A DNA stretch of 44,911 bases from an uncultured Deinococcota bacterium (GTDB lineage Bacteria > Deinococcota > Deinococci > Deinococcales > Trueperaceae): the NCBI GenBank assembly GCA_947311535.1, contig CAMZLP010000012.1, positions 1-44,911 on the forward strand, given 5' to 3'. Positions 40,384 to 44,167 of the stretch are shown one piece after another; the stretch's first letter is position 1, and each line of letters begins with the position of its first letter. Below the pieces are notes generated by a model. It was not told where the DNA came from. It searched no databases and saw only the letters and a program-made list of their open reading frames with translations. Made by a program: the position numbers and the translations under genes.

Positions 40384-40417
40384 AAAAAGACCCAGTGATT
40401 ATCCACTAGGTCTTTAC
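40384..40417 (-). terminator. Terminator after the pseudo-E2 gene
   Basis: AAAGACC-c-AGTG / CACT-a-GGTCTTT stem (11 bp with one mismatch, about 40386-40397 and 40404-40415), with TTTTTTAT following when read leftward. It separates the E2-like gene from ubiX. Confidence 0.8.
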
Positions 40418-40433
40418 AAAATTTATTTTTCTT

Positions 40434-42491
40434 TTAAACTAATAAACGTATCGGTGATTTAATTAATTCTGAGAAAATAGCAATAAACTTAGCACCGCGT
40501 TCTATAGAAACATCACCAGAGATTGACAATATGCTCTTAGCTCTATCACCACTATAGTCAATTCTACCCAATGTCATTACAGGAACAGCCACGTTTAAAG
40601 CTGCATCATCTAAGTCTAAGGTAGAAATATCAGCAATAATCAAATCAATATTTCCTAAGTCATCAAGTACAGAATCAGAATCTGTTAAAATTTTAGAAAT
40701 TTTAGTGAATGAATCAGTTTTTGCTGAGTCAACTGCTCTAATTTTCATGCCATCACTCTCAAAACTAGCAAAGGCTAGCTTAGAAGCATCAGCTAAACCA
40801 GATTCTTGAGCGGCTTTAGCAGCTACTTTTAGTAAAAATACTGAATTTGCTAAAGTATTGACAAGTTCTTTAGAAACTTCGTCACTAGCTTCAAGTAAAT
40901 TATTTAAATCAACTTGGCGACGCAATAAAACACCATGAGACATTTGTGTTTGCGGTGCTATTAATGAAATTGGGCTTGGCAAGCTTACCACTTCTTCTTT
41001 TTTAGTGGTTTTTTCAAGCTCAACAACTTCTTCTGGCGTATCAGCTTCAATCTCTAAAATCTCTTCTTCTGGCGCGTCAGCTTCTATTTCAACAACTTCT
41101 TCAATAACTTCAGCATCAGCGGCTATTCCTGTAGTTTCTGCTTCGGCTTCTTTTTGACTTGCAATAGCAGCAGAGCCAGCTACTACGCCTGCGGCTATTA
41201 AGCCAGGCTCGAGCATATCCTCTTCAATAGTTTCAGTATCAGTTACATCATTGGCGTTTAAATCTTCTTCAGTATCTAAATTTAGCTCAGGCTCGAGCGT
41301 ATCTTCAGTTACTTCAGCAACAGCAATATCTTCATTTTCTAAGCCATCTTCAAAATCCTCTAAAATAGCTTCTAAAGATTCCATTTCAGAAATATCTGCA
41401 TCATCTAAAAATCCTTGATCAGACTCTAAGTTTAGAGTTTCTGTATCAAGCCCTAAATCTGCTTCTTCAAGAATATCAGCTTCAATCTCTAAAGATTCTT
41501 CACTTAATTCAGATAAAATATTGTCTACAGATTTTTCCAAACTCTCCTCTGGCTGCATATCTATAGTCTCATCTAAATCTTGACTAGTTGCTAACAATTC
41601 TTCAACATTTGAATCTAATCCAGGATTAAGCGTTAAATCTTCAGCTTCATCATCAATAAATAAAGAAGCCGAATCTTCGTCTACTTCCTCAACAGAGCTA
41701 GCAAATAAATCGCTAGCATCTAATTCTATATTATCTTCATCACTATCCATTGATAGATTTTGTTCAATTAACATATCTTCAGAAACAAGCTCTTCTTCAT
41801 TATCAGAAAATAGATTTGTAATCTCATCATCTTCAGCTTGAACAAGATCTTCAACAACCATATCAACTTCTGTAATATTAGTATCATCATCAAATAAAAA
41901 TACATCTTCAGTAATATCACCTTCAGCTATAGCTTCTTGAACATCAGCCTGATTAGCTGTTAGATCTTCAGTAATATTTTCATCAACTATCGAATCCATT
42001 TTTAAATCATCGCTAAAACTCTCTTCAGTTTCACTAGCAAATATATCGTCACCTAGTTTTAAACTAAAATCGTCCTCGACGGTATCTAGCAAATCATCTT
42101 CAGGGTTTAAAAATACTCCCGACTGTTTTAGCAAATCATCTGCTTCGGACTCAACTGTATCAATATTAAAACTAAGTTCTTCTTCTTCAATTTGATTTAA
42201 CACATCTTCATCGCTAGCTGATGCCCAGTTGGCACTTGAATCATTTACACTAGCATCTACTTGTGATTCAAAGAAACCTTTTGTATCTTCTTCTGGCCAA
42301 GCTTCCATACCTTCTGGCACTGGCTCAGAAGTAGGGTTAATATCTTCATCACCTGCCATAACTTTAGCTAGATACTCTAATACGTCTCTTTCAATAATAC
42401 GACCATCTGAACCTGTTCCAGACAGACCGCGCCAATTAACATTATTTTCCTCAGCTAAACGTTTCGCTAAAGGTGCAATATTTGGTTCCAC
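40434..42491 (-). CDS. E2-like protein of 2-oxo-acid dehydrogenase type: E3-binding domain, acidic linker, degenerate catalytic core
   Basis: Residues about 1-45 are a peripheral-subunit/E3-binding domain: EPNIAPLAKRLAEENNVNWRGLSGTGSDGRIIERDVLEYLAKV. Residues about 55-500 form an extremely acidic Asp/Glu/Ser-rich linker with few basic residues. The last ~160 residues resemble an E2 acyltransferase core (LLRRQVDLNNLLEAS, LANSVFLLKVAAKAAQESG, AVPVMTLGRIDYSGDR) and end SILSISGDVSIERGAKFIAIFSELIKSPIRLLV. That aligns with the E2 ending LS-x-DHRxxDGAxxAxFL, but the catalytic His and Asp of DHRxxDG are Val and Arg. No lipoyl domain exists. GTG at 42491 is preferred because GGGAGG is 6 nt upstream. 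ATG 42497 and 42518 are in frame. Probably structural, not catalytic. Confidence 0.8.
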   Translation of the reverse strand: MEPNIAPLAKRLAEENNVNWRGLSGTGSDGRIIERDVLEYLAKVMAGDEDINPTSEPVPEGMEAWPEEDTKGFFESQVDASVNDSSANWASASDEDVLNQIEEEELSFNIDTVESEADDLLKQSGVFLNPEDDLLDTVEDDFSLKLGDDIFASETEESFSDDLKMDSIVDENITEDLTANQADVQEAIAEGDITEDVFLFDDDTNITEVDMVVEDLVQAEDDEITNLFSDNEEELVSEDMLIEQNLSMDSDEDNIELDASDLFASSVEEVDEDSASLFIDDEAEDLTLNPGLDSNVEELLATSQDLDETIDMQPEESLEKSVDNILSELSEESLEIEADILEEADLGLDTETLNLESDQGFLDDADISEMESLEAILEDFEDGLENEDIAVAEVTEDTLEPELNLDTEEDLNANDVTDTETIEEDMLEPGLIAAGVVAGSAAIASQKEAEAETTGIAADAEVIEEVVEIEADAPEEEILEIEADTPEEVVELEKTTKKEEVVSLPSPISLIAPQTQMSHGVLLRRQVDLNNLLEASDEVSKELVNTLANSVFLLKVAAKAAQESGLADASKLAFASFESDGMKIRAVDSAKTDSFTKISKILTDSDSVLDDLGNIDLIIADISTLDLDDAALNVAVPVMTLGRIDYSGDRAKSILSISGDVSIERGAKFIAIFSELIKSPIRLLV

Positions 42492-42767
42492 TATCATCCT
42501 CCCAAAACTACTATACAAAAATAATAATCCATATCATCCACTAGTTTGACTGTCTCAAGCAAGCTTTGCAGCGATAATTCCCACTTTAAGCCCTAAAATA
42601 TAGGCTATTATTAAAAGCTTCATAGTATATTTGACATAATTAATGACTAAATGAAGCACTAATTAAGTTTATTTTATACAAAAACTTAGATAAAGTCACC
42701 CCCCCCAAACCTTGCTAATCCTTATTAATAAGATATTTGTAATAGTTTATATGCTCTTATCTAAAGA
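42492..42767. other. Intergenic stretch upstream of the pseudo-E2 gene
   Basis: Holds the upstream region of the leftward E2-like gene (TTGAGA and TATGGA on the minus strand, 19-nt spacing, weak). There is a C8 homopolymer near 42693-42701 and no ORF of note apart from the small one that begins at 42768. Confidence 0.4.
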
Positions 42768-42866
42768 ATGAAGTCTAAAGATTCAGCAGGATTTTGGCAA
42801 CTATTTAAAGTATTTATATCTGGCTTTATTCTATCTTATGGTTTTATTTTCCTCTTAAATATTTAA
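42768..42866 (+). CDS. Possible 32-aa single-span membrane peptide
   Basis: ATG-initiated ORF reading KSKDSAGFWQLFKVFISGF, then ILSYGFIFLLNI and stop. A short polar N-terminus is followed by a continuous hydrophobic helix of about 22 residues, typical of bacterial small membrane proteins. It ends 12 bp inside the convergent VUT gene. No strong Shine-Dalgarno (AAAGA only). TTATCT 5 nt before ATG could serve as a -10 in the leaderless mode common here. Needs expression or conservation evidence. Confidence 0.35.
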   Translation: MKSKDSAGFWQLFKVFISGFILSYGFIFLLNI

Positions 42867-43751
42867 GCTTGCTGCTGCTTGAAACTTATTTTTTAAATTA
42901 ATTATTCCCAAAGCCACCACAAAAGCCACCGCAGCTTTTACAATAATATCAGTAATTATCACTTCTCTCATCCAAGCAAAATTAGCAAAATCTTGACCAT
43001 AAAAAGCAAAAACTGTAAATATAATTGTATCAATAGGAATACTAATAGCATTAGAAGCTATTACTCGGCTTAGCCAATTACGCTTTACTAAGCGCTGATA
43101 AACTTCTGTATCAGCAAATTCTGAAACGACAATAGCTGTAAAACCAACAACTACATAACGCAAGGGCGTTTGAATTGATAAAGCAGTAATGACATTTGCC
43201 ATAGCTGCTATAAAAATTGCCCACAAAGCATATTTGCGAGCATATTGATGAATCTTATCTCTTTGTGTAAAAGTAATAGCAAAAAATAGTGTACCTACAT
43301 TTACCAAACCAAATTTTGGCAAAGGCAAAAAACTGTCAAAAGTAAAATTGGCTAGTAAAGTAGCCATAACATAAACACTAATATCAGCAAAAAGCTGAGC
43401 ACGTTCTTTAAATACTTTTGGATATAATTCCAATAAACTTAGAGCTATAAAAGGCGAAAGTAGATATTCAAAAGCAGCTGGGTTATTAAAATTTACTAGA
43501 GCGAGTATAATATTCAAACTAATACTAGCAAATAAAACTATTCCCATTGAGCTAGGTTTTATCTTAGTTTTCAGCATCATAATTAGACCTAAAAATAAAG
43601 CGCCCAAAAAAGCTATAACTGCCCAAGGCAATTCTTGAAAGGGGCTTTGCCCAAATTGAGATAGCTTAAGTAATAATATATTAGCTAATTGAATAGCTAG
43701 ACTAGTCAATACAAACAATGAACTATAAAGCAAGTTTTGATATTTTTCCAC
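42855..43751 (-). CDS. VUT family (YhhQ-like) queuosine precursor transporter
   Basis: Polytopic membrane protein with about eight to nine hydrophobic helices. The conserved C-terminal VUT region is clear: RYVVVGFTAIVVSEFADTEVYQRLVKRNWLSRVIASNAISIPIDTIIFTVFAFYG, where the Ser-Glu-Asp...DxxxF pattern is diagnostic. Family members import the queuosine precursors preQ0/preQ1 or queuine. GTG at 43751 is chosen because GGAG lies 6 nt upstream. The in-frame TTG at 43763 would include the ribosome-binding site. 298 aa is longer than YhhQ (about 220) because of an extra N-terminal bundle. No preQ1 riboswitch was recognised upstream. Confidence 0.87.
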   Translation of the reverse strand: MEKYQNLLYSSLFVLTSLAIQLANILLLKLSQFGQSPFQELPWAVIAFLGALFLGLIMMLKTKIKPSSMGIVLFASISLNIILALVNFNNPAAFEYLLSPFIALSLLELYPKVFKERAQLFADISVYVMATLLANFTFDSFLPLPKFGLVNVGTLFFAITFTQRDKIHQYARKYALWAIFIAAMANVITALSIQTPLRYVVVGFTAIVVSEFADTEVYQRLVKRNWLSRVIASNAISIPIDTIIFTVFAFYGQDFANFAWMREVIITDIIVKAAVAFVVALGIINLKNKFQAAASLNI

Positions 43752-44167
43752 GAGAGGCTCCAAAAAGTTTTAGGGTTAAATCAAAAAACAAAATGCCACA
43801 ATGCCAAATGGGCTCGGACAAAAAATTTACTCTAGACAATAATTAAGATATTAAAAACTCTTTTGAATTCCTAATCAGCTTAAAGTGATTCAACGCTAGC
43901 AGTAATGTCACCTCCTGCTTCAGCTCGAGTATATCACCATAAAACTGATTTTATTTATGCAGCAAACTACAGTTTTATTAATGAATTTAGATTTTAAACT
44001 GTGAAATATTTCCCATTGTTATAGTAGAACTTAGCCTATAATGAGTTAAGGGGAAAGTTCTCAAGCAAAACACTCTTATTCCTCTGAATTTTTTCATACC
44101 TCCCTTCTTTACTTAGAGGCTCGAGCCAAACCCCTAGTTATTATAGGAAATTCGGGCCTTTTATTTT
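43752..44167. other. Gene-free stretch between VUT and channel genes
   Basis: Contains two iterated palindromes (43924, 44120) and a 9-bp inverted repeat ATAAAACTG/CAGTTTTAT (43939-43947 and 43970-43978). On the minus strand a GGAGGTGA-like sequence is present with no suitable start codon after it. A minus-strand 36-aa ORF beginning near 44096 has its AUG abutting GGGAGGT and is not convincing. No terminator was clearly recognised. Confidence 0.4.

Follow-up and report, generated by a model that had tools for sequence, protein, structure and literature searches.

What does a bacterial protein do that resembles the acyltransferase (E2) of 2-oxoacid dehydrogenase complexes at both of its ends and yet appears unable to catalyse? 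The question is raised by a gene on the minus strand of the window, which is the whole stretch of 44,911 nucleotides analysed here, from an uncultured member of the Trueperaceae (Deinococcota). In the textbook view, a bacterial 2-oxoacid dehydrogenase complex is built from three components, with a single peripheral-subunit-binding domain (PSBD) that E1 and E3 share. The gene is called pseudo-E2 below, and its features are as follows.

40434..42491, minus strand: pseudo-E2 gene (PSBD, acidic linker and non-catalytic E2-like core), 685 aa with a GTG start, from the reading of the ORF and the family.
42498..42503, minus strand: ribosome-binding site GGGAGG, 6 nt before the GTG, from the sequence.
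42378..42479, minus strand: PSBD (Pfam E3_binding, PF02817), from Pfam, with a conserved extension to about 42345 that holds the helix-2 Leu/Leu/Met and the terminating Gly.
40944..42245, minus strand: acidic linker, predicted to be disordered, from composition and the full-length AF2 model.
41892..41909, minus strand: EDVFLF, a short linear motif of the linker, from motif counts against shuffles.
40437..40937, minus strand: C-terminal E2-core-like domain without catalytic residues, from profiles, AF2, Foldseek, hhalign and column conservation.
40494..40514, minus strand: DVSIERG in the place of the catalytic DHRxxDG loop of E2, from the sequence and the profile alignment.
40386..40415, minus strand: intrinsic-terminator-like hairpin after the gene, one of 2 such sites in the region, where 1.0 would be expected.

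The limits of the ORF given in a preliminary description of this DNA were correct. The stop codon lies at 40434-40436, and translation most likely starts at the GTG at 42491, which follows the GGGAGG site; an ATG at 42497 was rejected as a start because it was too near this site. The terminator that the description assigned to the gene may correspond to the terminator-like hairpin at 40415-40386. The N-terminal PSBD is followed by a linker of about 435 residues and a C-terminal domain of 167 residues. Pfam recognised E3_binding alone (residues 5-38, E 4.6e-11) and no lipoyl domain, in agreement with the earlier view that the protein starts with a PSBD and has no lipoyl swinging arm. The matches in NCBIfam were weak E2 matches only, made via the PSBD. 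PF00198 (2-oxoacid_dh) was not listed for the protein even at E 10 and did not reach its gathering score; across the host genome, its profile matched three other loci and none at the pseudo-E2 locus. The core domain matched no model in Pfam or NCBIfam, and the current annotation therefore reads only "E3 binding domain".

The linker had been called extraordinarily acidic, which its composition bore out: 34% of the residues were D/E and 2% were K/R, with a net charge of -145 over 450 residues. In the full-length AF2 model, the pLDDT was about 91 for the PSBD, mostly below 50 for the linker (residues 83-516) and about 93 for the core. The linker is thus predicted to be disordered. A motif of the EDVFLF type (EDxFLF) occurred in 19 of the 22 Trueperaceae-type members, and about 0.5 was expected in shuffled linkers. 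The full-length model gave no sign of the motif docking onto the core, and the pLDDT of the motif was below 55. Thermaceae-type linkers (e.g., L065 and L070) carried a conserved, helix-like "AQxxLxxEGVDLxDLVP" about 25 residues past the PSBD, which was similar to the first helix and turn of the PSBD itself.

The structure of the C-terminal domain was predicted from 42 family sequences, none of which was a true E2. The model had a mean pLDDT of 93.4 and a pTM of 0.85. When it was compared with the PDB by Foldseek, every rank shown was an E2 core or an E2-containing model, with a best E of 1.7e-10 and a TM on the query of 0.67-0.76 for the matches shown; no significant match was found among viral models. 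A phmmer search of the PDB with the C-terminus alone gave no match, so the kinship with E2 was seen only with profiles and structure. An iterated HMM search seeded by the C-terminus of the window protein alone reached true E2s once the first family profile was used. With hhalign, the pseudo-core and E2-core profiles aligned along the whole core at 97% (156 columns, E 1e-10). In this alignment, a middle segment was missing from the pseudo-core and the catalytic loop was shortened. According to the model and these alignments, the fold of the C-terminal domain is that of E2 cores and not another, and the relation to E2 enzymes that the preliminary description had proposed was upheld.

The catalytic motif of E2 was lost from this fold. 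All five specified residues of DHRxxDG were invariant in 51/51 true E2 cores compared, whereas the catalytic His, Arg and Asp were missing from the window protein and from all 65 aligned family members. The DVSIERG that had been read in place of DHRxxDG lies at 40494-40514; according to the profile alignment, the loop was not merely substituted there but was also about 3 residues shorter. Among the 65 pseudo-cores, no column had more than 18% His or more than 18% Cys, and the conserved positions were mostly hydrophobic residues, Gly, Pro, Ser and Arg. The orthologue check on the loss of His and Asp had the same outcome: HRxxDG was kept by none of the tails of about 65 family members. The sole E2 in the list of tails, L183 with NHQVLDG, was a divergent true E2. 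Neither of the two outcomes that the preliminary description had named as refuting its view, a non-E2 fold or close homologues with an intact motif, was seen. Pseudo-E2 thus appears to be a pseudoenzyme, as judged from the missing catalytic residues.

The family was found throughout much of the phylum. A strong match to the PSBD profile (E <= about 3e-26) was present in 88 of the 100 Deinococcota genomes, one per genome and in five families; the tool counted 89 genomes because it included G024, whose sole match was weak. The carriers included Thermus, Meiothermus, Calidithermus and many Trueperaceae MAGs. The genus Deinococcus did not turn up in the scan and was apparently outside the searchable set. 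Several genomes had no pseudo-E2 and still kept E2s (G006 and G045), and pseudo-E2 is lost in some lineages. Matches in other phyla were ordinary E2s except on two contigs labelled Bipolaricaulota and Roseiflexus (L112 and L132), which carried Thermus/Meiothermus-like copies and were probably misbinned. The host genome itself held three complete E2s, each with a lipoyl domain, a PSBD and a catalytic core.

The architecture varied in a few members. In two genomes (L059:8001-8996 and L060:8372-9226), the PSBD and linker were followed by a predicted coiled coil that replaced the E2-like core. This variant suggests that the lasting contribution of the core may be oligomerisation and that the PSBD may be the working end. 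In one family, a paralogue with the pseudo-E2 core had no PSBD and a different N-terminus (L079:6947-8185, L080:6457-7731 and L081:3452-4849), and an HD_5-domain gene followed directly after it. One member with an unusually long linker had 1435 residues (L054:4741-9045 / L100).

The residues of the PSBD were examined at the positions of the B. stearothermophilus PSBD, in which Arg135, Arg139 and Arg156 are important. Nineteen PSBD positions were invariant in the family. The Arg135 position was Arg or Lys in 53/53 members, and the Arg139 position was Glu in all 53. At the Arg156 position, Arg or Lys occurred in 25/53, and Thermaceae-type members mostly had Thr or Glu. Where the helical turn begins, all members had a Trp in place of Ile, Leu or Tyr. 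The mean net charge of the PSBD was -0.1 in the family vs. +1.3 in true E2s. Canonical PSBDs have many positively charged surface residues that are required for binding (PMC6270654), and the lower basic charge of the family therefore counts against simple E3 binding.

Helix 2 of the PSBD was compared with that of the eukaryotic E3-binding protein (E3BP). In fungi and animals, E3BP differs from E2 in having no EKG motif, a Leu at D+2 and a hydrophobic residue at D+5 after a conserved Asp (PMC10156792). Counted from the positions in the same paper, its helix 2 is ended by a Gly at D+6 in fungi and at D+11 in animals. In the pseudo-E2 family, the EKG motif was absent. Leu was found at D+2 in 55/56 members vs. 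3/28 Deinococcota E2s, and at D+5 in 56/56 vs. 8/28. The Met at D+9 and the Gly at D+11 were each present in 56/56 members; the Met was not among the listed residues of the 28 Deinococcota E2s, and the Gly occurred 0 times among them. This signature played no part in choosing the family members. The D+2 Leu was also found in 14/21 E2s of other phyla, a biased sample, and E2s of some other phyla have both the D+2 and the D+5 features. On the residues compared, the helix-2 signature would be the strongest sequence argument for an E3BP-like function.

The gene neighbourhood was evaluated across the family. Downstream of pseudo-E2, on the same strand, are genes for a ubiX-like flavin prenyltransferase, ispD and ispE, all named from their sequences, and the position beside ubiX-ispD-ispE in the preliminary description was confirmed. 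A Vut_1 family transporter gene lies upstream (42855-43763, minus strand), and it occupies the slot that a PASTA-domain protein takes directly upstream in most Trueperaceae relatives. Near the contig end, 44168-44899 (minus strand) was read from its translation as encoding a putative channel similar to ionotropic glutamate receptors, with TLIGYDD as pore motif and a part like a substrate-binding protein. In the Trueperaceae, pseudo-E2 usually stands between the PASTA-domain protein and ubiX-ispD-ispE; in the Thermaceae, it adjoins an aminopeptidase gene and uvrB, and in another family a YfiH-like gene. The conserved neighbours that were examined included no recognisable gene for E1, E2 or E3, and pseudo-E2 was inside a dehydrogenase operon in no lineage examined.

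The most economical reading is that pseudo-E2 is a catalytically dead paralogue of E2 that works like eukaryotic E3BP, as a non-catalytic adaptor, and we give this about an even chance. The PSBD, on its long, disordered, acidic tether, would hold dihydrolipoamide dehydrogenase (E3) or possibly E1, and the tether would give reach. The degenerate core would oligomerise, in that it would form a trimer by itself or enter the core of a real E2, of which the host has three. The adaptor could then alter the number of E3 (or E1) per 2-oxoacid dehydrogenase complex, or it could link complexes. This reading is based on the E2 fold, the loss of the catalytic residues, the residue kept at the Arg135 position in 53/53 members, the helix-2 signature, the E3BP precedents and the conservation in 88/100 genomes; the coiled coil that replaces the core is consistent with a role in oligomerisation. 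The absence of E1, E2 and E3 neighbours, the genomes lacking the gene, the reduced basic surface of the PSBD, the D+2 Leu in E2s of other phyla and the lack of the lipoyl domain that animal E3BP carries count against it. Furthermore, an extra E3 anchor would not be strictly needed, since each of the three host E2s already brings its own lipoyl domain and PSBD.

The main rival is a scaffold outside dehydrogenase complexes, in which the PSBD and the core, joined by the acidic spacer, would have been co-opted as two modules for binding other proteins, e.g., cell-envelope or signalling proteins. We regard it as possible, although somewhat doubtful. The Trueperaceae location between the PASTA-domain protein and ubiX-ispD-ispE, the PSBD-less paralogue before an HD_5 gene in one other family, the coiled coil in two genomes, the conserved acidic-hydrophobic linker motif and the losses in some lineages would all suit such a scaffold, and the invariant Trp and the changed basic surface could be signs of a new partner. 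However, the neighbours vary by family (uvrB and aminopeptidase in Thermus), so that no fixed partner is indicated, and the PSBD retains both the residue at the Arg135 position and the helix-2 motif of E3BP type.

A competitor or regulator is improbable. The free PSBD would act here as a decoy that titrates E3 (or E1) off real E2s and lowers flux under some condition. Since the protein lacks a lipoyl domain and appears not to catalyse, any E3 that it held could be productive only if the core docked on a real E2, and the gene stands apart from the dehydrogenase operons; but a simple decoy would not need an E2-fold core conserved in five families, and no sequence of a regulatory kind was seen. 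An acyltransferase that is still active by means of relocated catalytic residues is very improbable: the E2 fold is retained, but across the 65 sequences neither His nor Cys is conserved and an E2-type catalytic set is absent, the loop of the active site is shorter, and the core has lost a segment. Such an enzyme and an artefact were both rejected on the conservation and motif data. A decaying E2 pseudogene, which the loss of catalytic residues and lipoyl domain might suggest, has a negligible chance and is already refuted by conservation, given the open ORF, one strong match per genome in 88/100 and the 19 invariant PSBD positions.

If the adaptor reading is true, Deinococcota, including Thermus, would hold an independent or parallel bacterial solution, and the question of why E3 recruitment is split from catalysis would become testable in a culturable thermophile. 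More generally, the PSBD and the dead E2 core, with the acidic spacer between them, may form a multivalent hub throughout the phylum. Such a hub would be a bacterial E3BP that arose by convergence and fixes the stoichiometry of E3 without regard to E2, or else a scaffold connecting the dehydrogenase complexes with some other system of the cell; we hold this tentatively, at slightly less than an even chance. A literature search on bacterial E3BP or the Thermus orthologue found nothing specific. E3BP appears to have been described so far only in eukaryotes, and by its sequence the pseudo-E2 family would be a conserved bacterial protein that resembles E3BP.

Pseudo-E2 shares with bacterial E2 (E2p, E2o and E2b) the PSBD and the C-terminal core fold, with homology detected by profile. 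It differs in having no lipoyl domain and no HRxxDG, in its place outside the operon, in a core of about 167-185 residues vs. about 230 in E2, and in a linker that is acidic rather than Ala/Pro. MRPS36 (KGD4) is a small protein without a PSBD or an E2-like core. As an adaptor, it recruits E3 to the 2-oxoglutarate dehydrogenase complex of eukaryotes (PMC9974300), and the role proposed for pseudo-E2, a non-catalytic adaptor linking E3 to an E2 core, would be similar; no homology is claimed. E3BP (protein X; human PDHX, N. crassa PX) has been characterised as a gene of eukaryotes broadly (PMC10156792), and in N. crassa and human it combines a PSBD, a linker and an inactive core (PMC10156792, PMC7494870). 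The shared features are an inactive core derived from E2, inactivity being presumed in pseudo-E2, a PSBD and a long flexible linker. Both also have the helix-2 Leu, the hydrophobic residue and the terminating Gly, and a reduced core fold (PMC10156792, PMC7494870). Each has a conserved motif in a part that is disordered, but the EDxFLF of Trueperaceae linkers is placed elsewhere than M3 of E3BP, and no kinship of the two motifs is claimed. In contrast to E3BP, pseudo-E2 is bacterial, its linker is very acidic and reaches about 490 residues, and it sits in genomes whose E2s carry their own PSBD; animal E3BP has a lipoyl domain, and the bacterial family has none. Pseudo-E2 is not classed as a confirmed E3BP, since its binding of E3 and its docking on E2 are proposals and it has no lipoyl domain like that of animal E3BP. 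Overall, the comparison with eukaryotic E3BP favours an adaptor or scaffold role for pseudo-E2.
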